Source: a virus. From it: DNA of 25,432 nt. This document shows positions 5,525-21,007 of this stretch, piece by piece (position 1 is the first letter of the stretch; each line of letters starts with the position of its first letter). The stretch is taken from positions 1 through 25,432 of the IMG/VR virus record IMGVR_UViG_3300005468_000056, one strand, 5' to 3'. A program made the translations under genes and the position numbers. Under the pieces are notes generated by a model. The model saw nothing but the letters and a program-made list of their open reading frames with translations. It had not been told where the DNA came from and searched no databases.

Positions 5525-5956
5525 TCATAGGTGGTGTGTCCGGCTGACGCGGAACCCGCGCGGGGTGGCGACCTCGACCAGCGACTCGTACAGCCACGGT
5601 CGCCCGCGCGCGTGGGCGGGCGAGTAGACCGCTTTCACGATCACCGTCCGGCCGGCGATCTTGAACTTGAGAGCTTTCTTGTTCACGGGGAAGATCGGCT
5701 CGGTGCGTGACCATCCGTCGTGCACGGGCACCGCGTAGGGCACGAGCACGCGGACGGTACCGACCACGCGGGTGAAGTGGCGGACCACCTTCACCACGTG
5801 CGAGGCCCGCATCAGGCCGGTATCAACCGGCGAGGTTACCTTCGCCCGGTTCTGTGTGCCGCGTGTCGTCTGCAGCACCAGCCGCTCCGCCACTTGCATC
5901 GAGTCGGCCCGTGCTCGAGCGCGGTCGACTTTCACGCGGACGCGCACTCTTGCCAC
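5525..5956 (-). CDS. HK97 gp10-like head-tail joining or tail completion protein
   Basis: I place the start at GTG 5956: GGAGGAGG lies nine bases upstream and the frame then reads VARVRVRVKV. The longer upstream frame is Arg/Pro-rich shadow sequence overlapping another gene. The 143-aa product has a basic N-terminal helix and then the gp10-family pattern: SPVDTGLMRAS near residue 40, YAVPVHDG near 73, and GRPWLYESL near 121. HK97 gp10-like proteins act at the head-tail junction or tail terminus, and the position just before the tail chaperones agrees. The gene overlaps the preceding 125-aa gene by 134 bases in another frame, much longer than other overlaps here. Confidence 0.8.
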   Translation of the reverse strand: MARVRVRVKVDRARARADSMQVAERLVLQTTRGTQNRAKVTSPVDTGLMRASHVVKVVRHFTRVVGTVRVLVPYAVPVHDGWSRTEPIFPVNKKALKFKIAGRTVIVKAVYSPAHARGRPWLYESLVEVATPRGFRVSRTHHL

Positions 5957-7823: not shown

Positions 7824-8630
7824 CTAGGAGATGAGTGTGTAGCGGGGTTCGTCGTCGTCGAAGGAGAACACCCGCGGCCGTTGGATCAGGCCTCTCGGGT
7901 TCGCCGCGAACACCCACTGATTGACGTTCGCCATCGGCGTGAACCCTTTGGCGATCAAATCTTCGGCGGCGAGGATCTCGTAGGTGACCCCGTCGCGGCT
8001 GATCGACGTCGCGGCCGGCGACAGGGCGCACGCCTGCCCGGCGCACAGCTTCGCGAATTCGCACGCCAACAGGCCGTTGATTTGCGGTCCGCCCGCGGGC
8101 AGCGCGTGCCCGCGCGTGTAGGTGACCTGGAAGGCGTTAGACCCGTTCGCGGGCTGGTTGAAGTCCTGGCAGTCGGGCCAGACACGCCCGTTTTCGGCGA
8201 CGAGCCAGTAGATGCCCTGCGCGACGTCGACGCGGTAGTCGGAGGCGGGGACGACCAGGCCGTTGACGAGCACCTCGGTTATCGCGGTGACCGGCCCGGC
8301 CAGTTTCACTTGCGAGCTGGGCACGCAGCTGCAGGCGGACGCGCAGCCGCAGTTACGCCATGCGCCGCCAACATCCACGTAGGGTGTCCAGTTCGGGCCG
8401 ATCGACCCGTCGTAGTACCCGTCGGTCCACACACCATAGGTTCGATAGGTTTGCCCGATTTGCTGGCCGCAGGGGCGGACCACGATCGGGCAGTCGCCGA
8501 ACTGGCGCCCGGTCAACGCCCACAGCACATACGACGACAGGGTGACCGCGTTGTCGCGGATCGTTTGATCGATTTCGGCCCAGCCGGGGCAACAGGATGT
8601 GTCAACGGTCCAGTTGCAAGGTGCTGCCAT
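7824..8630 (-). CDS. Head-to-tail adaptor
   Basis: A 268-aa protein with the features of actinophage head-to-tail adaptors, which dock under the portal. It has a Cys-containing N-terminus (PCNWTVDTSCCPGW, residues 4-17), helix YVLWALTGRQFG (34-45), a Cys cluster CGCASACSC (94-102), GPVTAITEVLVNG (112-124), a VTYTRGHALP segment, and EFAKLCAGQACAL. The start at ATG 8630 has GGAAGGGG seven bases upstream. The multiple Cys pairs could stabilise the fold or bind metal; which one cannot be told from sequence. It is followed by other connector-region genes. Family recognition is strong, but this placement downstream of the major tail protein gene is less usual. Confidence 0.85.
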   Translation of the reverse strand: MAAPCNWTVDTSCCPGWAEIDQTIRDNAVTLSSYVLWALTGRQFGDCPIVVRPCGQQIGQTYRTYGVWTDGYYDGSIGPNWTPYVDVGGAWRNCGCASACSCVPSSQVKLAGPVTAITEVLVNGLVVPASDYRVDVAQGIYWLVAENGRVWPDCQDFNQPANGSNAFQVTYTRGHALPAGGPQINGLLACEFAKLCAGQACALSPAATSISRDGVTYEILAAEDLIAKGFTPMANVNQWVFAANPRGLIQRPRVFSFDDDEPRYTLIS

Positions 8631-8669: not shown

Positions 8670-9236
8670 TTACGGGATTGCCGTAACCAGCACGCTGACT
8701 CCGAGCCCGACGAGGCCCGTGTTGTGGATGGTGACGCTGGCCGTGTTCTCGTCGACCACCGACAGGGCGGTGACCGACAGGTTGCCCAGGTTGACCCCGC
8801 CGAACAGTTGCGCCCGCGGCGTCCACGAGCTGTCGGCTTGCGCCGGCTGGATGTCGACGGTGACGGTGGTGTCGCCCGGCCCGGCGGTGAGGGTGAGCAC
8901 CCCGGCGCCGAGCACGACCGGCTGCCCCTCGAGGCCGTCGATGCGGTCGTCAAGACTTGTCAGGTTGGTTTGCTGCGCGGCGAAATCGGGCAGTCTCACC
9001 AGCTCATGGGAGAACCGGGTGGGGTCCACCGAATCGGTGACGATGCCGTCCTGACGGTAGGTCAGGCACCAGCCTTCTAGCGCGTAGAAGATTCCGGTGT
9101 CGCTGGTGAAGTCCAGTCGGCCACCCGATTCTGCCGTGATGACGATGTCGAGCAGGGCGTCCAGGTCCGCCGAGTTCGTTCCGTCGTATGTAACACCACG
9201 GGACTTGGGGACGAGATCATAGGGGACAGCAGACAT
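8670..9236 (-). CDS. Virion-associated protein with two beta-rich domains, function unknown
   Basis: A 188-aa protein. Residues 1-85 contain VTYDGTNSADLDALLD and EGWCLTYRQDGIV, a pattern found in small actinophage head proteins (Y-D-G-T-N-x-x, then a Gly-x-Trp-hydrophobic turn). A short helix (residues 86-103, LTSLDDRIDG) joins this to a beta-sandwich-like C-terminal domain ending GVSVLVTAIP. The ending resembles that of the upstream PKD protein (FAVAIP). The start at ATG 9236 has AAAGGAG about ten bases upstream. It follows a 195-base gap containing a terminator-like structure. It could be a capsid decoration or neck protein; I cannot choose between these. Confidence 0.68.
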   Translation of the reverse strand: MSAVPYDLVPKSRGVTYDGTNSADLDALLDIVITAESGGRLDFTSDTGIFYALEGWCLTYRQDGIVTDSVDPTRFSHELVRLPDFAAQQTNLTSLDDRIDGLEGQPVVLGAGVLTLTAGPGDTTVTVDIQPAQADSSWTPRAQLFGGVNLGNLSVTALSVVDENTASVTIHNTGLVGLGVSVLVTAIP

Positions 9237-9257
9237 ACGGATCTTGCTCCTTTCTCA

Positions 9258-9276
9258 GGCCACGGGCTAGGTGGCC
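9258..9276 (-). promoter_or_regulatory. Small hairpin just before the ribosome site of the 188-aa gene
   Basis: GGCCAC (9258-9263) and GTGGCC (9271-9276) form a perfect 6-bp stem with a 7-base loop. It lies a few bases upstream of AAAGGAG and about 20 bases before the ATG at 9236. It may protect the 5' end of a processed transcript or affect translation; no T-tract follows it. Confidence 0.35.
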
Positions 9277-9343
9277 GGGAGATCGGCGGCAAGGCGTCGA
9301 CGGCCCCGGCTGGACCGTCAAACAAGACGCTTTGGCGCCGAGC

Positions 9344-11548: not shown

Positions 11549-12035
11549 CGCCGTCGCCGCCTTCCTTCTTCGCCGCCGCCTTGCGGCCGGTCGCCTTGCG
11601 GGCTACCGGCGGTTTGACGGTGGCGGCTCGTTTCTGCCGGGAGCCTTTCGGCGCCTCGACCGGGCCATGGTCGCCGGTTTCTGCCGTGTGCGCGGCGTAG
11701 GCCTCGGCGAGCTCACGCGGGACGACGAAGCCGCCCGCGCGGGGCTGGTAGTCGACCACATGCGGGTGCATGCCGAGCGCGGCGGCGATGTCGAGCAGGA
11801 GCCGGGCGAGCGGCTCGAGGCCAGGCCCGTCGCCTACCGCCACAACCTCGGTCACGGCCAGGTGCACAACTTGCGCCTCGTCGTCCTCGAGCTCGTCGTC
11901 GACCGGCTGGTCGTCGACAGTCGGGGCATCCGCCGCGGCCGGTGTTTCGGCCACGGCCGAAGGGTCCGGCGGTGCGCCGCCCGGTGCTGCGCCGACACCC
12001 ACGTCGACTGGGGGATCTTGGATCGGTTCGGTCAT
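11538..12035 (-). CDS. Protein with acidic N-terminus and basic C-terminus, function unknown
   Basis: A 165-aa protein from ATG 12035, sharing one base with the stop of the capsid-like gene before it (TGATG). The longer open frame extending upstream lies inside that gene and is Arg-rich shadow sequence. Residues 1-55 are Pro/Ala/Asp-rich and strongly acidic (VDDELEDDEAQ), residues 56-115 form a compact helical or alpha/beta core (LEPLARLLLDIAAALGMH), and residues 125-160 are Lys/Arg/Ala-rich (RKATGRKAAAKK), like histone-tail repeats. The basic tail could touch packaged DNA and the acidic arm a protein partner; both are inference. Position between capsid and tail tube genes suggests a head protein. 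Confidence 0.7.
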   Translation of the reverse strand: MTEPIQDPPVDVGVGAAPGGAPPDPSAVAETPAAADAPTVDDQPVDDELEDDEAQVVHLAVTEVVAVGDGPGLEPLARLLLDIAAALGMHPHVVDYQPRAGGFVVPRELAEAYAAHTAETGDHGPVEAPKGSRQKRAATVKPPVARKATGRKAAAKKEGGDGDGR

Positions 12036-12991
12036 CAGACTGCCACCTTCGGGATAGCCACCTTCGCGGTGATGTTGAAACAGTCGTATGTGGCCAGGTA
12101 CTCGCGCTCCCACAAAATCTGGAGCTGGTTCAGGGAACGGTCCATGACCTCGAGCGCGTCTGGTGGTGTCCATTCCGGCTTGCGCCACAGGGCCACGTTG
12201 CCGGTCATCCAGATGTAGGTGTTCCCGGCGCCGGGTGCAGCACCCGCGCCGGCAACGCCTGGGCCGGTGCCGGCATAGCCGCCGCCGAAAACCCACTTCG
12301 ACCCGAGCGGGGTACGCAGCATGGCCTCGTTCGCGCCGACACCCCACACCGCGCCGTGCGTGTTCGCGGTGACGACCAACGCTGCTTGCGCCGCGTAGGC
12401 GTGCACGGCCGGGATGGCGTGCAGCACCCCGAAGTAGCCGTATGGCGAGATGACAGGCGGGCCTGCCGCGCCGCCGTAGGCTGCCTGCTCGAGCGCGGCC
12501 ACAGCGTCGGTGATGTTCGCGTAGGTGCCCGCGCCGCCCACGTTCAAGCTGGTCGAGTTGTCGATGATGAACGGGGCGTTGCCGAACCCACCCGACCACA
12601 GAGCCGCCTCGACGGCCTGCTGCTCGGAAGCGAACAGCCGTTTTTGCGTCTTGCTGGTCAGATATTCGACGGAGTAGCCGCCTTTGCTGCATTTGATCGT
12701 CGCGTACACGGAAAACGGCAGCACCTGCCGCTCGGCCGAGTTGGCGTCGAAGCTTTTCGCGGCGCCGCCCGAGGGCGGGCAGACGATCGCGTACGGGTGG
12801 GCCGAGCCGCAGCCGACCGGGTCGTAGTACATGCCGGCGGCGAACGCGTGGCCGCCGCGGTTCGGGTCGTCGCTGACGGACGTGGGCAGGCTCTGCGGCG
12901 GGGCCACGTTGAAGATGCCGTAACGCAGGTTCCCCGGTTGGGGCACCTCCTCGGGGTGCAGCCGGGTCGACCCGACTGTTCCGAATGCCAT
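12035..12991 (-). CDS. Second HK97-like capsid protein (candidate pentamer or minor capsid protein)
   Basis: A 318-aa protein with an excellent start: AGGAGG six bases before ATG 12991. It follows the major capsid gene. The middle has features of an HK97-type shell protein: EAALWSGGFGN after a helix, then DAVAALEQAAYG, GYFGVLHAIPAVHAYAAQ, and TPLGSKWVFGGGYAGTGP, which resembles the A- and P-domain segments of capsid and encapsulin-like proteins. The end is MDRSLNQLQILWEREYLATYD. In several actinophages a gene in this place is called a capsid pentamer or minor capsid protein, which would let vertices and faces use different subunits. The fold assignment is moderate; the pentamer role is inferred from position. 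Confidence 0.65.
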   Translation of the reverse strand: MAFGTVGSTRLHPEEVPQPGNLRYGIFNVAPPQSLPTSVSDDPNRGGHAFAAGMYYDPVGCGSAHPYAIVCPPSGGAAKSFDANSAERQVLPFSVYATIKCSKGGYSVEYLTSKTQKRLFASEQQAVEAALWSGGFGNAPFIIDNSTSLNVGGAGTYANITDAVAALEQAAYGGAAGPPVISPYGYFGVLHAIPAVHAYAAQAALVVTANTHGAVWGVGANEAMLRTPLGSKWVFGGGYAGTGPGVAGAGAAPGAGNTYIWMTGNVALWRKPEWTPPDALEVMDRSLNQLQILWEREYLATYDCFNITAKVAIPKVAV

Positions 12992-13070: not shown

Positions 13071-14795
13071 TCAGGCGCAGGACCGAGTGACCAGGTCACT
13101 CGTCGCGCCGGTCGGGCACATGGTGTAGACCACACGGCGGGAGTCGGGGCAGGTCTTCGCGACGAGGACCCCCTCCTCCGTGAACAGGGCGGTGTATTGG
13201 TTGGTGGACAGCTTGGCGCTGTCGTAAACCGTTTCGAGGCGGATAGTCTCATCCACACCCTTTGCCCAAGTTCCGGCCGGGTAGATCATGAACTCGATCG
13301 CGGCGGGGAACGTGGTGATACCAGGAGCGGCCGTACCGGGGCCGCCAGCGACACCGCTGTAGGCGTCCTGCCAGTCGTACACGAGCCGCAGCGACAGGTG
13401 ACGGTCGGAGAAGAACCCGGCGATGGCCTGGTCGGTGACCGAGAGCAGGTCGACGCCCGTGCGGCGGGACAGGTCCGCGCGGATCTGCGCGAGCGCCCAC
13501 ACGGGGAACACGGCCTCGAGGGTCGCGGTCGGGTCCATGCGGTTGCGGTAGCGCATGTCGGTTGCCACCATCTCGGCCGCCGCGAGCAGACCAGACGTGG
13601 TGACGTCGCCGACGAGCGAGCCGACCGGGATCGGGTCGAGGTCGACCAGGGTCGAGCCTGCCGCCATCTCGGAGATGACGAAGGCGTTGACCATGTGCAG
13701 GTGGGCGATCATCGCGCCGCGGATGAACCGGGCGATCAGCTCCGGGTAGCCGCGCCGCTGCAGGATGCCGGCGGTGATGCACACGCCGAGGTTACGCAGC
13801 CGCTTCTCGGTGAACGCCGGGCAGTCGATCTCCATGCACGGCTTGACCGTGTTCGCGATGACCTGGGCCTCGGTGTAGTTCCAGTAGCCGGAACCGTTGA
13901 AGATCGACGCGAAGTCGGGGCCGGTGGTGAAGAAGATGCCGCCGCGCGAGATCTGAATCTCGGTGATCGGCAGGATGCCCGTCGACGTTTCCAGCTCGCA
14001 CAGGTCGTAGATCGTCAGCGAGGGCGCACAGTAGGCCGCGGCGGCGGTCTGGTTGGCGTTCTCCGCCTTGTACTTGTCGACCGCGCCCATGAGCGCGGCG
14101 AACTCGACACCCTGGTCGGCTGCGCCTTCGACGGTGGTGAGGCGGAACTCGGTCGGGTAGTCGCGGACGAACTCGATCAGCGGGTCCTGCAGCCGGCCCT
14201 GACCGACGGAGCGGTAGCGGTCCAGTTGCTTGATGAACGCCCCGGCGAGCTGCTTCATGCCGGTGAACTCGTCGAGCTTGAGCGGCGCGAAGTCACCCGA
14301 CGTCGGGTTCTTGATCATGTAGCGGGCGCGGCCGTACAGCTCACGCTCGGGTGCGGCGACGGCGCCGCCCGGGTTGACGGCGGGCACGAGTGCGGTGGCC
14401 TCCGCGGCGCGCGGCAACGCGAACGTCGGGTCGGCGGCAGGCGTGACGACCGGTGCGGGCGCGGCAGGTGCCGGCTCGGCCGGCGCGGCAGGTGCTGCGG
14501 GCGTGGTTGGCTTGAGCTCCTCGTCGAGCGCCGCGAACGAGGCGACGATCTTCTCACGCTCGGCGGCGTCCTCGGCGCGCTTGGCGATGCGGCCGTCCAG
14601 CTCGGTCTTGGCCTGCATGGCGTAGGTGTGCAACTCGCGGACGGTGGCACGCTCGGCCTCGGTCAGCGTGTTGATCCGGTCGGGTGCCAGCAGCGGGCGG
14701 GCTTCGGTCGCCGCTGCGACTTTGACGGCGGTGAGCTCTTCGTCGGTCGCGGCAGCGAACGCTGCGGCGTCCTTCCAACGGGTGAAATCGAACAT
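13071..14795 (-). CDS. Major capsid protein, HK97 fold, with N-terminal scaffold domain
   Basis: A 574-aa shell protein. I start it at ATG 14795 (MFDFTRWKDAAAF), with AAGGAG ten bases upstream; the frame stays open further up but those codons overlap the promoter. Residues 1-95 are charged and helical, followed by an Ala/Pro linker (96-122), which is the layout of a built-in scaffolding (delta) domain removed by the prohead protease. The remaining 430 residues carry actinophage capsid hallmarks: CAPSLTIYDLCELE, ITEIQISRGGIFFTTGPDF, MEIDCPAFTEKRLRNLG and GILQRRGYPELIARF. Length is greater than the usual 300-400 residues because of the scaffold domain. Its own upstream promoter and a hairpin after the gene fit high expression. 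Confidence 0.93.
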   Translation of the reverse strand: MFDFTRWKDAAAFAAATDEELTAVKVAAATEARPLLAPDRINTLTEAERATVRELHTYAMQAKTELDGRIAKRAEDAAEREKIVASFAALDEELKPTTPAAPAAPAEPAPAAPAPVVTPAADPTFALPRAAEATALVPAVNPGGAVAAPERELYGRARYMIKNPTSGDFAPLKLDEFTGMKQLAGAFIKQLDRYRSVGQGRLQDPLIEFVRDYPTEFRLTTVEGAADQGVEFAALMGAVDKYKAENANQTAAAAYCAPSLTIYDLCELETSTGILPITEIQISRGGIFFTTGPDFASIFNGSGYWNYTEAQVIANTVKPCMEIDCPAFTEKRLRNLGVCITAGILQRRGYPELIARFIRGAMIAHLHMVNAFVISEMAAGSTLVDLDPIPVGSLVGDVTTSGLLAAAEMVATDMRYRNRMDPTATLEAVFPVWALAQIRADLSRRTGVDLLSVTDQAIAGFFSDRHLSLRLVYDWQDAYSGVAGGPGTAAPGITTFPAAIEFMIYPAGTWAKGVDETIRLETVYDSAKLSTNQYTALFTEEGVLVAKTCPDSRRVVYTMCPTGATSDLVTRSCA

Positions 14796-14881
14796 TGCGG
14801 CAGGGCTCCTTAAACACGGACGGGAATATCTCGCGGTGTTTCCGGTCCGGCCGGCCCTTAGCGCTGCGCCTGCGACACATG

Positions 14882-14907: not shown

Positions 14908-14935
14908 AGGATAGCGTCACCTTCCCCAGACACAA
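14908..14935 (-). promoter_or_regulatory. Candidate promoter for capsid and tail genes
   Basis: On the minus strand TTGTGT (14935-14930) and TATCCT (14913-14908) are separated by 16 bases, resembling -35 and -10 elements of a primary-sigma promoter (TTG of -35 kept; TANNNT at -10). It stands after two hairpins that would stop transcription from the right, exactly where a new start for the capsid unit is expected. The predicted leader is about 105 bases. Confidence 0.5.
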
Positions 14936-14940
14936 AGAAC

Positions 14941-14974
14941 GCTCCCGGCCACGGGGGTCGTGGTGTCCGGGAGC
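14941..14974 (-). terminator. Second hairpin upstream of the capsid promoter
   Basis: GCTCCCGG (14941-14948) pairs with CCGGGAGC (14967-14974), and CCACG (14949-14953) pairs with CGTGG (14959-14963) with a 3-base bulge. Read leftward it is followed by GTTCTTTGTG, a partial T-tract that merges into the -35 region of the capsid promoter. It probably backs up the terminator at 15045-15080. Confidence 0.5.
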
Positions 14975-15044
14975 GGTCTATCAGGAAGGAAGAAAATCAC
15001 GACGTGCGCATACCCGTCATAGTAGCGCCGCGTGTTTGGGGCAC

Positions 15045-15080
15045 AAAAAAGCACCCCCGCCTTACCCGGGCGGGGGTGCT
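15045..15080 (-). terminator. Intrinsic terminator closing the leftward cassette genes
   Basis: AGCACCCCCGCC (15050-15061) and GGCGGGGGTGCT (15069-15080) form a perfect 12-bp stem with a 7-base loop, and read leftward the stem runs into six T residues (15050-15045). On the plus strand it is followed by CTTTTG, so weaker activity in that direction is possible. It lies 38 bases after the stop of the 41-aa membrane protein gene. Confidence 0.85.
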
Positions 15081-15117
15081 CTTTTGAGGAGAGGTGTACC
15101 GGGCCGAGCCTACTCCG

Positions 15118-15243
15118 CTACACCTTGCGGCGAGTGCTCCACGGGGCAAGCCACGAGAACAGGAGCGAGAGGGCCAGCCCGGCGAGGCCGACGAGCGGCA
15201 CCATCACGTCGGACGCGTGGAAGATCCAATGTCCGTCATTCAT
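15118..15243 (-). CDS. 41-aa single-span membrane protein
   Basis: A short gene from ATG 15243, sharing one base with the stop of the 124-aa gene (TGATG), with AAGGGAGGT five to six bases upstream, a very strong ribosome site. The product is a hydrophilic N-terminus (MNDGHWIFHASD), one hydrophobic segment (residues 13-34, VMVPLVGLAGLALSLLFSWL) and a basic end (STRRKV), which predicts a single membrane span with the C-terminus inside. A second ATG six bases on is in another frame and stops after eleven codons. Small membrane proteins of this kind in phages include holin-like, anti-holin and superinfection-exclusion proteins. None can be chosen from sequence, and no endolysin gene is near. Confidence 0.72.
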   Translation of the reverse strand: MNDGHWIFHASDVMVPLVGLAGLALSLLFSWLAPWSTRRKV

Positions 15244-15617
15244 CACACACCTCCCTTTGTGCTGTCGATCAGGCGGATTCCGCCCTGGTAGGCCCACGCA
15301 TCTCCGGTGAACCGGTTGTTACGGTCCAGCCACGGCCCTGCCTGGTAGGCGACGGTGGGGATGCCGCCACGGGGCTGTGTCGGCGGCAGGTCCGCGAAAC
15401 GGACCGCGCCGCATGGACATCGCTCGGTGACCTCCCAGCCGAACACGCCTTTAGACTGCGGGATGCAGCGGTGCAGGAGGCGGAACAGAAGACCTCGGAC
15501 ACCTGTGGGCAGTGGCACGGACCAGAACGGTACCGGTGTGCCTTCGACGATTTTGTGGGCTACGTGGCCCGATCCGGTGTCTCGGGTCCACATCCAGTCG
15601 GTAATGCTCTCCGACAT
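15243..15617 (-). CDS. 124-aa protein of unknown function in cassette
   Basis: I start at ATG 15617, preceded by GGGAGG four bases upstream; a GTG directly before it is an alternative. The sequence is rich in Trp, Pro and aromatic residues and shows no known family to me. Visible parts are an N-terminal MSESITDWMWTRDTGSGHVA, a hydrophobic stretch (VRGLLFRLLHRCI, 40-52), a CPC pair (RCPCGAVRF, Cys 67 and 69; Cys 51 nearby) that could bind metal, and a Gly/Trp-rich C-terminus. It is co-transcribed and translationally coupled with the 41-aa membrane protein and faces away from the plus-strand gene at 15673. This suggests a two-gene functional unit unrelated to virion assembly, but function is unknown. 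Confidence 0.7.
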   Translation of the reverse strand: MSESITDWMWTRDTGSGHVAHKIVEGTPVPFWSVPLPTGVRGLLFRLLHRCIPQSKGVFGWEVTERCPCGAVRFADLPPTQPRGGIPTVAYQAGPWLDRNNRFTGDAWAYQGGIRLIDSTKGGV

Positions 15618-15656
15618 CACGCCTCCCTATCTCCTAACGCGGGTGGTTGGCTTTCC

Positions 15657-15672
15657 ATGCTAGGGTGTGTCC
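15657..15672 (+). promoter_or_regulatory. Extended -10 leaderless promoter of the plus-strand gene, overlapping a divergent -10
   Basis: TGCTAGGGT (15658-15666) matches the extended -10 form TGnTANNNT. The ATG at 15673 follows the hexamer by six bases, so transcription would start at or next to the start codon. That is the arrangement of leaderless actinobacterial genes, and no ribosome site is present, which agrees. On the minus strand TAGCAT (15662-15657) overlaps it and could be the -10 of the divergent 124-aa gene. No clear -35 is seen for either. Confidence 0.55.
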
Positions 15673-16254
15673 ATGGACAATACAACCCTGCCGGTCGGCG
15701 AATCTGTCGACCTCACGACAGTTCAGCAGCTTGCCGAGGCGGTCCACATGCGGCTAGGCGCTATCGAGGCGTTCACCGGGTACGGGTACACCGACGCCCG
15801 GCGAGACGTCATGACGCGCGCGCACGAGGTCGTCGACGAGCTGCGGGCGTGCCGCCTGCGCACGGTCAACCCCGGGTTCGAATGGCACGCCATCCTGCAG
15901 GCCAACGCGGTCTGTCACGTGCTGTTCGGCGAGCTCCACCCGCCGGCCCAGTTTTGGATGACACCGCTGGGCGCAGACGTCGCCTGGCTCATCGGCTACC
16001 CCCATTCGGTGGTGCCGGTGTGGGCAGCTGCAGCGGTGTGCAACCTGAATCGGTCGGTCGCTTCGACGGCCGTCAAGGAAGGCCGGCTCGTGCTCACGCC
16101 CGCGGGCGTGCGCGATTACGTGCGCCGCTATCCGCGGTGGACGCGGTGGGCGAAAACCCTGCAGCCGGACGCGTCGACGATGCAGCCGGTCGCACCCGCG
16201 CACTCGTGGGATGTCGGCAAGCTGACCCGGCGCACCGCAGTGCAGCCGGCATGA
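15673..16254 (+). CDS. Candidate helix-turn-helix protein, only plus-strand gene
   Basis: A 193-aa protein; ATG 15673 is chosen over GTG 15667 because of the promoter spacing. Its coding potential is better than plus-strand shadows elsewhere: it has normal amino-acid composition and it ends just before a terminator. Residues 15-65 are helical. Residues 112-152 resemble a MerR- or excisionase-like helix-turn-helix (VWAAAAVCNLNRSVAST, then AVKEGRLVLTPAGVRDYV), where the GRL-L-P turn and following helix are typical. The C-terminus (165-193) is probably disordered. It could regulate the divergent 124-aa and 41-aa genes or the capsid promoter. The fold call is moderate; the regulatory target is speculation. 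It lacks any feature of a virion protein. Confidence 0.75.
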   Translation: MDNTTLPVGESVDLTTVQQLAEAVHMRLGAIEAFTGYGYTDARRDVMTRAHEVVDELRACRLRTVNPGFEWHAILQANAVCHVLFGELHPPAQFWMTPLGADVAWLIGYPHSVVPVWAAAAVCNLNRSVASTAVKEGRLVLTPAGVRDYVRRYPRWTRWAKTLQPDASTMQPVAPAHSWDVGKLTRRTAVQPA

Positions 16255-16256
16255 CG

Positions 16257-16291
16257 AAAAGCCCGAGGGGTCTCCAGTCCCTCGGGCTTTT
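16257..16291. terminator. Bidirectional intrinsic terminator between convergent genes
   Basis: AAAAGCCCGAGGG (16257-16269) and CCCTCGGGCTTTT (16279-16291) are perfect inverted repeats around a 9-base loop. T-tracts are present on both strands. It lies three bases after the plus-strand gene and about 70 bases after the last gene of the leftward head operon, so it ends both converging transcripts. Confidence 0.93.
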
Positions 16292-16363
16292 CTATTGCCC
16301 CGGCAGGTGTTTCTTATGACTGAACACACCCCTACCAAGACTTCCGGGCAGCACATTATCAGG

Positions 16364-16546: not shown

Positions 16547-19500
16547 CTATTCGAATGCGCCGACCAGGGCGGCCGATTCGTCGGCCCACGCGAGCGCGTC
16601 CAGCTCGGCGGCGATCTGCCCCAGGTCGTCGGCCGGCTCGTCGAACCATTGCCCGGCGGCGACCATGTTGGCCATTTGCCCGTCGATGATGTGCGCGCGG
16701 GGGACAACGTGGCCGGGCACGTTCACCGCGAGGATCGCCATCAGCTCGAAGTTCGTCCAGTGCCCCGACGGCGGCGACATCATGAACCGGGTCGCGTCGA
16801 CCGCGGTCACGTCCGGGGCGAGCACGCCGGAGAAGAACGGCCCGAACTCGTCGTCGACGACCCGGCCGTAGGCGAACTCTTTCGACGTGGCGTCGTAGAA
16901 GGCGCGCACCACGCGCGGGGTGCCGTTGACGTCGGCGTGACCCTCACCCATGACGATCTTGCCTGCTTTGATGGGTCCCTCGGTGGTGCGCAGCTCGCCG
17001 AGGTGAAACTCCTTGTAGCCGCTGCGCGAGCGTGGCGGCGGGACGCATACGCCGCGGTGGCCGCGGTTACACGACGACCACGATCCGATGTGCCCGTAGA
17101 CGCGGGTGAACGGCTCGTCGGGCCGGTCGTCGAGCGTCATCGGCGTCAGGCCTTTGGCCTTCACCCGGAACGCGTCGGCCGGGTACGGGTCGAGGCCGGC
17201 GAACACGGCAGCCGCGGTCTGCGACCCGTCCCCGGCGAGGGAGCGCGCCCACTTTTCGGCGCAGCCGCAACCGTCGGAGGCGAGCGCCATTTCGTTCGAC
17301 GTCGAAGCGTCCCAGGGGGCCTGGAGGCTGTCGTCGTCGAACTCGTCGGCCATCTGGTCGTACAGGTCGTCGAGGACGTCGCGGACGTCCTGTTTCGCTG
17401 TGGCCGGGATGTCGGTCTGGTTGAGCCGGGCCGCCACAGCGAACACAGCGCGGGGGACGATGGTGAGCTCGCCGTCGATCACGTCGGCGATCGGCAGTTT
17501 GAACGCGCCTTGCGCGTCGGCCGGGTCGTCGTGCCACAGGAACGCGCGCCCGTACTTGTCCAAGTCCAGCTGGTCGCCGTCGCTGGCCCATTCGACGAGC
17601 CGGCCCACAGCGGCGCCCTTGTCCCATTCGACATCGCGGTCGGCGAACGGAAGATCGTCCCAGCCGTTCGCGCGGACCGCGGCCACCTGGTCGGAGCAGC
17701 CGCACGACGGGCGCATCAAACCCATGACGGCCATGTCGTCGCGGGCGGTGCGCGTGTACAGCTGCGGGGCGCGTGCTTCCGCGAACGCGGTGATCGGGAC
17801 GAGGGTGGCGCCGGCAACCGTCGCATTGGTGATCAACGCGGTGGGTTTGGTGGGGCAGCTGCCGTCCATGGCGCAGGTGTGCGGGTTGAACGTGTTGCCT
17901 GCCTCGTCGGTGAAACTGACATCCATGTCCGGCTCGAGGTCGACCGACGGGCCGATCAGCCCGTGCTCGACGAGGTACATCGCCTTTTCGGCCTGCGGGA
18001 TCTTCTCCGGGTCCAGGAAATACCCTTCGCCCATGATCGTGCCGGGAGGCAGTACGGTGCCGTTCGGCATGGTGTACGGGTCGGAGAGCACCGAATATCC
18101 GGTGAGCGCACCAACGACGACCGCGCCGTCGTGACCGGACTTCTGTTCTTCCTGCCACCGGAACGGCAGCGGAAGCCTGCGGGTCGCCAACGCCTCGGCG
18201 GTGAACTCGCGCCGGTCGCCGGTTTTGACGTCGACCGGGGCGAGCGGGCCACGCCAACCCATCGACGGCGACGGCGCATCCAGGTCCGGCGCTGCTGTGG
18301 TTTCGTCGTCGCCGAGGTCGACCATCATCTGATCGTTTCCGCACATGGCGCAGGCGGTCTGCATCGGCAGCATGATCCGAGTCCCCATAGCGGCCATCCT
18401 TCCAGGTCCAGTCAGGTTGCGGCGGCGCCCGTGCGGGCCGGGGTGTTTGCCGGTGGCCCGCTTGTAAAGGTTGGCCACGGTGCCGTTCACCATGCGCAGC
18501 GGGACGCCCTCTTTCAGCAGGAGCCGGCGGGCGCGGCGGAACGACCCGCGGGTACCCCATCGCACCTTCGCCGCGCCCTCACCCTCGGTCCAATACCGTT
18601 GCAAATGCTCGGGCATGGTGGAGATGTCGAATTCGGTGAGCGCCCACTGTGCGAACGCTTCGGCGTAGTCGAGTAGGTCGGCCTGGAACAGGGCGGCGGC
18701 GGTCTGCTGCGCCTCGGCTTCCATCCCGCGCGGGGTGAGCAGGTACGAGGCGAACTGCCCATATAGGGCGTCCATCTCGTCGTTGGTCATGTCGAAGTTG
18801 ACCTCGTCGCCGTCGTCGCCGAGCGCGGACAGGTGCCACCCGGCGTTGCCCTCTTTCGGGTAGATCGAAAAGTGCTCGTCGTAGCCGGGGTCTTCGGGGT
18901 GCCACGTGCGCGGCTGCAGATCCATGAGCGCGACCATGTAGGGCGCGCGAGGGTCGTTGCCTTCGAACGGCTGCGTCTGCAGCTCACGGCGCAACAATTC
19001 GGTTCCGACGAACGCGGCCAGGCTGCGCATGTCGCCGTCGGACAGGTGCAGGCGGGCGGTTTTCTCCTCCCAATCCTCGCTGACTACCTCGTCGTTTTCG
19101 TCGTATTCCACCTCGCCTTGTGACGGGCCGGTGATGTCGAGCAGGTGTTCCTGATTGCCGCGGCGGGTGACGTCCCGATCGCGCTGCGACCAGTCGAACG
19201 ACCGGTTGTAGTACTGGCCGTCGGGGATGTCAGAGCCGGCGCCGTCGAAGTCGATCGCATCGTCGCCAGTGCGGTTGCCGGCCTTGGCGGCTTTCGCCTT
19301 GAGCATGTTAAACAGGGCCGTGGAATGCCCGAAACGGCCACCCACACCGCGCGGGTGTTTGCTCTTGAAGTCCTCCAGGTCGGCGCCGGAAAGCGCGAAT
19401 TCCCAGCCGGCGATGAGGTCCACCACGTCGGCGGCGGTCTCGCCGAACACGCTGTCGGCCTCGAGCGGCTCGAGTGTGAACGTGCCGGCGCCGCCCGTGC

Positions 19501-21007
19501 GGCCACCCACCACCCGGGGCACAGGCTCATTCAGGTTCTTGATCAGCCGCTTGCGGCGGCCATCGCTGTCGACCGTCTCCAACACGATGACCGGCTGACC
19601 TCCCACAATGTCGCGTTTCGTGCCGCGGATGTGGAGCGTCTCGCCGTTCTCTTCGATCTGGTCGCCGACGCTGAGCGAGTGCGCGTTCATCTTCGACGTG
19701 TGCGACTTGGGCCGGTTCGCCTTCACATGTTCGATCCGGTCGAGGATCTCCTGCTTGGTGCGCAGGTCGCTCATGTCGATGCCGAGATCGCGGGCCTGCC
19801 GCTGCACCTCGCGGATATTGGGCAGGTTGCCGGCGGCGGGCTGGCCTTGCACGTGCGAGTCGGACAGGACCGCGGCCAGCTCGTCCACGGTCAGCTTGTT
19901 CGGGTCGCCCACGGCCAGCTTGCGGCGGCGCACAGCGGCCACCAGCGACCGCTTAGAGAACCCGTTCAACGCGTCGTGCTCGCCCGACTCGAGCGCAGCA
20001 TCGACCGTCTTAGGGCGCTTCTTAGGCACCGGAGGAGGACCATACTCGAGGGTCGCGTTGCCCCGGATCGCGCGTGAATCGAGTTTCGCACCGACAGACG
20101 CATCCATGATCATCGTACGTTTCTGGTCGGCGGTCGTATCGCTGGGCACGCTGTAGTGCTTAGCGAGCGCCGCCAGACTTGCGCCCTTGACACCAGCCAA
20201 ATACTTCTGGGCGTCCTCGCGCGACTCGAGCCCCTCGAGATGGCTCGCATGATCACCGGGCGGTGTGGCCTTGGTCGGCTTCAGGCCGGCGTCAGGGTTT
20301 AGCCGGCCTTGCGCTGTCTTCACGGCCTCGGTCATGTGGCCAACCTGCTCATGCAGCTTCGCCGACCGGGCGTTCTGCGCGGCCTTGTCGGCGGCGATGA
20401 TCGCATCGAGCTTGCCGGCGGCGGCCTGATCTTTCTTCGACCACTTCGACCGGTCGCTACCATGCATCCGTTCGGCGTTGCGCAGCCGCTCACGAGCCTT
20501 GTTCACCACGGCCGGGGCGGGCGCAGGCGGCGGCGCCTCACGCAGCGCGCCGCGCAACGCGCCAGGCACATAGCCCTTGTGTCCGCGGATGGCGACAGCC
20601 TGCGACGGTTTGACCTCCTCGACACCACCCGAGTCGCCTTCCGCTTTCGCCTTGACCGCGGCGGCCGACGGGGTGTCGGGCGCGTCTGCGTGGGCGAATA
20701 GGCCACCCTTGCCGCGGTGGTGTTTCTTGTTGAATTCGGCCCTGGCCAAACCTGCCAGCGATGCGACCTGCCCGACGGGTTCCTCGTACGGGATCTCGGC
20801 GATGTCGAGCAGGTCGTTTGACCATCCGTCGATCCGCTCGAGCACCTGGTCGACGGTGAGGTCTTCGGTATCGATCGGGGCGAGCTCGTCGAAGAGGTCT
20901 TCGGCCGCGCCGGTACCGAACGCGACCTCGCCCGTGGCCGGGTCGATGACGATCAGGTCCAGCACGGTTGCAGTGTCGGCGGTGGCGACGGCGAAAACGC
21001 GCATCAT
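16547..21007 (-). CDS. Giant head protein with C-terminal prohead (capsid maturation) protease
   Basis: A 1486-aa protein from ATG 21007 (ATGA overlap with the gene before). Usual prohead proteases are 200-650 aa. The C-terminal part (about 874-1486) has the S78-like actinophage pattern: GHDGAVVVG with probable catalytic His959, and GLIGPSVDLE with probable Ser1021. It ends with SGHWTNFELM (from 1414) and LAVNVPG, a signature of actinophage maturation proteases. Upstream are an N-terminal beta-rich domain (1-70), HHRGKGGLF (96-104), helical segments resembling Rho-N/SAP modules (about 275-315, 350-382 and 400-430), a small beta barrel-like region (445-490), a second HPRGVGGRF (551-559) and an acidic domain (580-760). 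Likely role: enters the prohead and cleaves the capsid scaffold domain. N-terminal functions are unassigned. Confidence 0.85.
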   Translation of the reverse strand: MMRVFAVATADTATVLDLIVIDPATGEVAFGTGAAEDLFDELAPIDTEDLTVDQVLERIDGWSNDLLDIAEIPYEEPVGQVASLAGLARAEFNKKHHRGKGGLFAHADAPDTPSAAAVKAKAEGDSGGVEEVKPSQAVAIRGHKGYVPGALRGALREAPPPAPAPAVVNKARERLRNAERMHGSDRSKWSKKDQAAAGKLDAIIAADKAAQNARSAKLHEQVGHMTEAVKTAQGRLNPDAGLKPTKATPPGDHASHLEGLESREDAQKYLAGVKGASLAALAKHYSVPSDTTADQKRTMIMDASVGAKLDSRAIRGNATLEYGPPPVPKKRPKTVDAALESGEHDALNGFSKRSLVAAVRRRKLAVGDPNKLTVDELAAVLSDSHVQGQPAAGNLPNIREVQRQARDLGIDMSDLRTKQEILDRIEHVKANRPKSHTSKMNAHSLSVGDQIEENGETLHIRGTKRDIVGGQPVIVLETVDSDGRRKRLIKNLNEPVPRVVGGRTGGAGTFTLEPLEADSVFGETAADVVDLIAGWEFALSGADLEDFKSKHPRGVGGRFGHSTALFNMLKAKAAKAGNRTGDDAIDFDGAGSDIPDGQYYNRSFDWSQRDRDVTRRGNQEHLLDITGPSQGEVEYDENDEVVSEDWEEKTARLHLSDGDMRSLAAFVGTELLRRELQTQPFEGNDPRAPYMVALMDLQPRTWHPEDPGYDEHFSIYPKEGNAGWHLSALGDDGDEVNFDMTNDEMDALYGQFASYLLTPRGMEAEAQQTAAALFQADLLDYAEAFAQWALTEFDISTMPEHLQRYWTEGEGAAKVRWGTRGSFRRARRLLLKEGVPLRMVNGTVANLYKRATGKHPGPHGRRRNLTGPGRMAAMGTRIMLPMQTACAMCGNDQMMVDLGDDETTAAPDLDAPSPSMGWRGPLAPVDVKTGDRREFTAEALATRRLPLPFRWQEEQKSGHDGAVVVGALTGYSVLSDPYTMPNGTVLPPGTIMGEGYFLDPEKIPQAEKAMYLVEHGLIGPSVDLEPDMDVSFTDEAGNTFNPHTCAMDGSCPTKPTALITNATVAGATLVPITAFAEARAPQLYTRTARDDMAVMGLMRPSCGCSDQVAAVRANGWDDLPFADRDVEWDKGAAVGRLVEWASDGDQLDLDKYGRAFLWHDDPADAQGAFKLPIADVIDGELTIVPRAVFAVAARLNQTDIPATAKQDVRDVLDDLYDQMADEFDDDSLQAPWDASTSNEMALASDGCGCAEKWARSLAGDGSQTAAAVFAGLDPYPADAFRVKAKGLTPMTLDDRPDEPFTRVYGHIGSWSSCNRGHRGVCVPPPRSRSGYKEFHLGELRTTEGPIKAGKIVMGEGHADVNGTPRVVRAFYDATSKEFAYGRVVDDEFGPFFSGVLAPDVTAVDATRFMMSPPSGHWTNFELMAILAVNVPGHVVPRAHIIDGQMANMVAAGQWFDEPADDLGQIAAELDALAWADESAALVGAFE
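18386..18403 (-). promoter_or_regulatory. Candidate internal ribosome site and start within the protease gene
   Basis: On the minus strand GGAAGG (18403-18398) lies nine bases before ATG 18388-18386, which is in frame at codon 874 (MGTRIMLPMQ). Translation here would give a 613-aa protease of more usual size without the N-terminal domains. Another in-frame ATG at 18397 is too close to the GGAAGG to be used well. Confidence 0.45.

Follow-up and report, generated by a model that had tools for sequence, protein, structure and literature searches.

What are three genes that look nothing like virion genes doing among the head genes of a phage, just ahead of its major capsid protein (MCP) gene? The DNA we analyzed, which we call the window, is an entire IMG/VR record of 25,432 bases. 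A sequence-only reading of it had described the three genes as moron-like, with their own promoters and terminators, inserted in a late operon and of a type that often acts in the lysogen. We agree the cassette is a real, insulated accessory unit led by a helix-turn-helix (HTH) gene. It is kept by the nearest relative and is of a familiar kind. We part from that description over the operon and the lysogen.

The virus and its late genes

A longer contig of the same virus, IMGVR_UViG_3300044711_000113 (G001; 55,743 bases), is 99.99-100% identical to the window. Its ends lie 41 bases apart inside the window, at 12025-12065, so the two records together form a closed circle of about 55.8 kb. The virus is an actinobacterial-type phage of the Rosebush/phiAsp2 supergroup. 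Its late genes lie on the minus strand in the order portal, MuF-like, two protease/head proteins, a 56-aa DUF7196-like protein, the cassette, MCP and tail genes. The MCP gene (13071..14795, minus strand; phrog_777 major head protein, E 5e-127) is the right flank of the interval discussed here. The left flank is the conserved 56-aa gene, P4 (16364..16534, minus strand), which comes after the maturation protease and matches PF23826 at E 3.5e-4, below the family cut-off. It has counterparts at the matching position in four relatives (L009, L010, L013 and L014). The cassette had been placed between protease and capsid genes; the gene that adjoins it on the protease side is P4. A head protein of 1486 aa (16547-21007, minus strand) is a composite maturation protein; separate parts of it match portal, protease and other head PHROGs, and it exceeds its relatives' counterparts in length.

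Three genes between two hairpins

Terminators bound the cassette on both sides, just as the first reading held. Between P1 and P4 lies a perfect bidirectional terminator (16256..16292), an inverted repeat with 14-nt arms (16256-16269 and 16279-16292) that are 100% complementary (z -5.9 for one strand, -5.4 for the other). A near-perfect one (15044..15086) separates P3 from the MCP unit; its 18-nt arms (15044-15061 and 15069-15086) are 94% complementary (z -6.0 and -6.8). Folded as RNA, whichever strand is taken, both reach -27 to -34 kcal/mol, with 0 of 200 shuffles equally good, so both are bidirectional in form.

P1 (15673..16254, plus strand) encodes 193 aa, runs counter to the late genes and has an HTH in its C-terminal half. 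P2 (15243..15617, minus strand) encodes a zinc-ribbon-like protein of 124 aa with the pattern H-x-C...C-x-C-G, and is preceded by a good Shine-Dalgarno sequence, AGGGAGG. P3 (15118..15243, minus strand) encodes a single-pass membrane protein of 41 aa with a hydropathy maximum of 2.04 over 19 residues. The stop of P2 and the start of P3 share one base (TGATG), which bears out the earlier description of two coupled minus-strand genes. GC content by codon position is coding-like for P1, P2 and P3 (GC3 0.85, 0.75 and 0.88). Homologues and codon bias both back P1 and P2 as genes; we found no sequence homologue of P3 and call it a gene on just two grounds, its position and its hydropathy. By PHROG matches no gene of the cassette resembles a virion protein, as had been noted.

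The HTH of P1 is read through its family, and this upholds the plus-strand HTH candidate of the first reading. The family has members in five other non-redundant relatives (L009, L010, L011/L076, L013 and L014), all at the protease-MCP interval beside the DUF7196 gene. Five of the six members match HTH_17 (PF12728), the best at 26.9 bits (E 6e-6) against a Pfam gathering score of 27 bits. P1 itself has no match in Pfam, PHROG or NCBIfam. Its AlphaFold2 model is confident over the C-terminal half (pLDDT 82-94, residues 91-150). Foldseek with this model had no match better than E 0.001; among its viral matches HTH proteins were many, none of them significant. The best PDB profile match, Pfl 6 Cro, was set aside as too weak (E 0.01). 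The six-member alignment is too diverse for pattern scans. The P1 family resembles the HTH_17/excisionase-like small DNA-binding proteins in its HTH_17 matches, but differs from them in the size of its members (146-193 aa), in their long helical N-terminal part, and in the matchless P1 of the window. Judged through its family, P1 would work like an HTH_17 protein; we do not claim membership for it. Searched by tblastn against the GenBank phage collection, P1 had no match, and the L009 homologues of P1 and P2 and the L013 P1 gave nothing of value. The P1 family was not found in 50,697 sequenced phage records or in 84,980 bacterial and archaeal genomes.

P2 has homologues in L010 and L009, which makes a family of three. 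Residues H49, C51, C67, C69 and G70 are conserved, and their retention suggests that P2 binds metal. No Pfam, PHROG or NCBIfam family matches P2, and tblastn against the GenBank phage collection turned up a single hit, weak at E 0.01, to a metagenomic phage without annotation. The structure model of P2 was unusable (pLDDT 41).

The interval as an insertion hotspot

We compared the interval across 63 loci, with relatives recruited as contigs by MCP similarity. Our gene caller makes mistakes in places where GC is high, with antisense ORFs in L015 and errors in parts of G001, so the gene lists of this survey are approximate; interval lengths rest on protease matches. The distance from protease to MCP ranges from 228 nt to 5.3 kb and is under 600 nt in 22 of the 63 loci. 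Near-empty intervals also occur in isolated phages, Soos, Zemanar and Coffee among them; these three, with SmokingBunny, Chah and Dewdrop, have no more than one or two small genes there beside MCP. Elsewhere the interval is occupied by unrelated genes (integrase, HicA, phiAsp2 pas8-13). In phiAsp2 six counter-oriented genes, pas8-pas13, sit between the protease (pas7) and MCP (pas14). This block resembles the cassette in its orientation against the late genes and in its place, but its six proteins are different and the two have no genes in common. Since the interval is near-empty in so many loci and filled with unrelated cargo in others, we take the cassette to be a moron-like insert at a hotspot.

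Other occupants deserve a brief record. A tyrosine integrase sits alone in the interval of L073 (6359-7360, minus strand), and also of L074 and L082, an odd place for an integrase. L013 has a HicA-like toxin gene there (5548-5760, minus strand; Pfam over cut-off), and L014 has a gene (8363-8563, minus strand) that is HicA-like by eye, both without an evident HicB partner. In L048 a gene at 8673-9302 (minus strand) looks by eye like a DNA cytosine methyltransferase and has no Pfam match.

The closest relative is L010, with an MCP 60% identical. It repeats the divergent arrangement: P1 reversed, a P2 of 124 aa, a coupled membrane protein and hairpins at both ends. The membrane protein, of 100 aa, is the positional counterpart of P3 and is likewise coupled by TGATG. 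In L009 (MCP 54% identical) the DUF7196 gene is followed by adjacent homologues of P1 and P2, whose reading frames overlap on one strand. Hairpins are found at the cassette edges of L010 and L009 as well, but of different sequence. Only the window and L010 have P1 running against the late genes; the other four members have it on the late strand. In L013, L014 and L076 it adjoins other genes and P2 is missing. About five small genes of 104-143 aa that resemble tandem diverged paralogues lie between P2 and MCP in L009 (6756-8684, plus strand).

The first reading proposed to check whether close relatives lack the cassette and keep its flanks. The short intervals agree with this; L010, the closest of all, does not, and four more lineages keep P1, so P1 and P2 are not peculiar to this phage.

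A probable boundary ahead of the capsid gene

The first reading put the cassette in a late operon, but MCP appears to have signals of its own. A second terminator-like hairpin (14930..14980, minus strand; -28.5 kcal/mol, z -5.3) is followed by a promoter-like -10, TATCCT (14908..14913, minus strand), which aligns with TAGCCT in L010, and by a conserved leader motif, GCAGGCGCAGCGCTAAGGGCCGGCCGG (14847..14873, minus strand), kept in L009, L010, L011, L012 and L014. Directly ahead of MCP the same three kinds of element (terminator-like hairpin, promoter-like -10, conserved leader) recur in most loci with enough upstream sequence. Given these elements we dropped the idea of a single uninterrupted late operon that includes MCP. 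MCP is probably transcribed as a unit of its own. The interval would then be a natural transcription boundary, at which insertions interrupt no operon and do the least harm. Accessory genes apparently collect here because the terminator, promoter and leader of the MCP unit spare any operon.

A moron is one or more inserted genes with their own promoter and terminator between genes that are contiguous in relatives (PMC3029335). The cassette fits in that it lies between genes adjacent in relatives, has its own terminators and candidate promoters, and carries no virion-like gene. It departs in being three divergent genes rather than one, in being common to the closest relative, in sitting at a pre-existing boundary rather than inside an operon, and in having no link to a lysogen. 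The moron label holds for the insertion and the terminators, fails for the operon and finds no support for the lysogen.

Candidate promoters and a candidate operator

Divergent promoters had been proposed in the middle of the cassette. A sigma-70 consensus scan found none, so comparison is needed to support them. The sequence TAGGGT (15661..15666, plus strand) is a candidate -10 for P1 that ends 6 nt before its ATG, which would give a leaderless start. The spacing is the same in L010 (TATGGT) and L009 (TAGATT); TANNNT thus stands exactly 6 nt ahead of the start in three of six family members, against a background of 0.5%. Leaderless actinobacterial genes have TANNNT centered 7-12 bp before the start site (PMC3898074), and the P1 start appears to have this layout. 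For P2-P3 the candidate promoter is TTGTAT-17-TAGCAT (15657..15685, minus strand), with a matching layout, TTGTAT-17-TACCAT, in L010. It is the weaker evidence because its -35 falls in P1 codons. The proposal of divergent promoters thus fails by consensus and gains some support by comparison.

A perfect 12-bp palindrome, TGTCCATGGACA (15668..15679), covers the P1 start within the spacer of the candidate P2 promoter and is a candidate operator. The whole window has 15 perfect 12-bp palindromes, so one would fall in this gap by chance about 3-4% of the time. Its counterpart in L010 is imperfect.

What the cassette may do

We favor, with about even confidence, the view that this is an HTH-controlled, self-regulating accessory cassette in a recurrent hotspot of a virulent-looking phage, and that P2 and P3 are its early anti-host cargo. 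P1 would be made from a leaderless promoter, and its target would be the short palindrome that covers the P1 start and lies within the divergent P2 promoter. Binding there would repress both P1 itself and P2-P3, an autoregulated switch. The terminators at both sides would exclude the cassette from the protease and MCP transcripts. P2 and P3, as HTH-controlled cargo, would probably be early proteins aimed at the host or at its defenses; this last step is our guess from their position and company.

Aca repressors are HTH proteins that act at inverted repeats in acr core promoters (PMC9410906). P1 is an HTH protein by the HTH_17 matches of its family and the helices of its AlphaFold2 model. Like aca-acr loci, the cassette has a small HTH protein beside changing small genes and a palindrome within a candidate core promoter. 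Unlike them, its HTH gene is divergent rather than downstream in an operon, and it has no named Aca or Acr match, NCBIfam giving no named Aca for the P1 family. By this analogy P1 may be Aca-like in logic; we claim no membership.

In favor of our reading we count the cassette shared with L010, the hairpins, the P1 family, the TANNNT spacing, the changing cargo, the missing lysogeny genes and the Aca logic. Against it we count the empty promoter scan, the chance level of the palindrome, the matchless P1, the three-member P2 family, the three relatives with P1 and no P2, and the fact that no homologue of a known defense or anti-defense protein was found. A bolder version, which we regard as doubtful, gives virulent actinophages an anti-host island at the capsid boundary whose cargo rotates while its control gene, P1, stays fixed. 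P1 would belong to a single environmental HTH family governing whatever anti-defense genes lie beside it, with P2-P3 as a new zinc-ribbon/membrane anti-defense pair.

The lysogenic-conversion moron of the sequence-only reading has P1 regulating P2-P3 in the prophage, where the pair would give superinfection exclusion or defense. The terminators, the candidate promoters, the non-virion genes and the small membrane protein all suit this idea, as does the moron definition of PMC3029335. However, no tyrosine or serine integrase (PF00589, PF00239) was found in G001 or the P1-bearing relatives, some of whose records are fragments. PHROG found no integration or excision family among 28 larger non-structural ORFs; neither integrase, resolvase nor any other integration family turned up in the genome or in those relatives, and PADLOC had 0 families matching P1 or P2. 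The phage looks virulent, the basis being the missing integrases; it might still form lysogens by a route that needs no integrase, but the lysogen reading is without positive support. We think it unlikely.

P1 might instead regulate the adjoining MCP or late promoter, which would make the locus a developmental one and its neighbors passengers. Among the nearest relatives P1 is indeed the best-conserved gene of the interval, and its place is always the interval that precedes the MCP unit. But it was not found in the remaining relatives, which also have the MCP promoter and leader, and the palindrome occurs at P1/P2 and not near MCP. This makes such a role distinctly unlikely.

Is P1 the HTH antitoxin of a toxin-antitoxin-like pair, with P2 (and P3) as the toxic part? 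The P1 family has weak AbiEi_4 and Rv0078B antitoxin matches, the two frames overlap in L009, HicA occupies the interval of L013, and toxin-antitoxin genes of M. tuberculosis typically have leaderless starts (PMC3898074). A type II pair would be co-transcribed and show a toxin-family match. In the window and L010, however, P1 and P2 diverge and so are not co-transcribed, no toxin family matches P2, and three relatives have P1 without P2, all of which leaves this explanation quite improbable.

That P1 is an excisionase or a terminase small subunit is very improbable indeed: weak excise matches, the phrog_57 terminase small subunit match of the L009 member (E 0.0036) and the integrase in the L073 interval speak for it, but every match is below cut-off, P1 lies in its own insulated unit and some 10 kb separate it from the gene that place and size suggest is the large terminase, and with no integrase in the genome or in any P1-bearing relative searched we dropped the excisionase.

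Returning to the accessory cassette, its hotspot has a use of its own. The protease-MCP boundary of a large actinophage group is marked as a collecting place for accessory genes, which gives a defined coordinate at which to seek new anti-defense or host-takeover genes in actinophages. The conserved HTH gene P1 can serve as an anchor for such searches.

The capsid gene leader

The leader ahead of MCP is possibly an undescribed capsid-gene RNA element; Rfam gave nothing over threshold, the leader included. In the phiAsp2-like group it appears to form a stem of 5 bp around a loop of about 17 nt, with compensatory changes on both sides in 3 of the 5 pairs. The stem is 98.9% paired, and its covariation is 0.385 versus 0.246 in shuffles (0 of 500). 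At E < 0.01 a covariance model places the leader immediately ahead of MCP in 24 loci (L005 8296-8329, L041 9414-9447 and 22 others), five of them outside the training set, and has no match elsewhere in those loci at that threshold. The leader of the window falls in a sister group, whose related motif, GGY-GCNGNGCTRWGRGCCG-RCC, goes unrecognized by the phiAsp2-like model. Other leaders, including those of the isolated phages Soos, SmokingBunny and Coffee, have the form GCTGGC...GGGCCGG.
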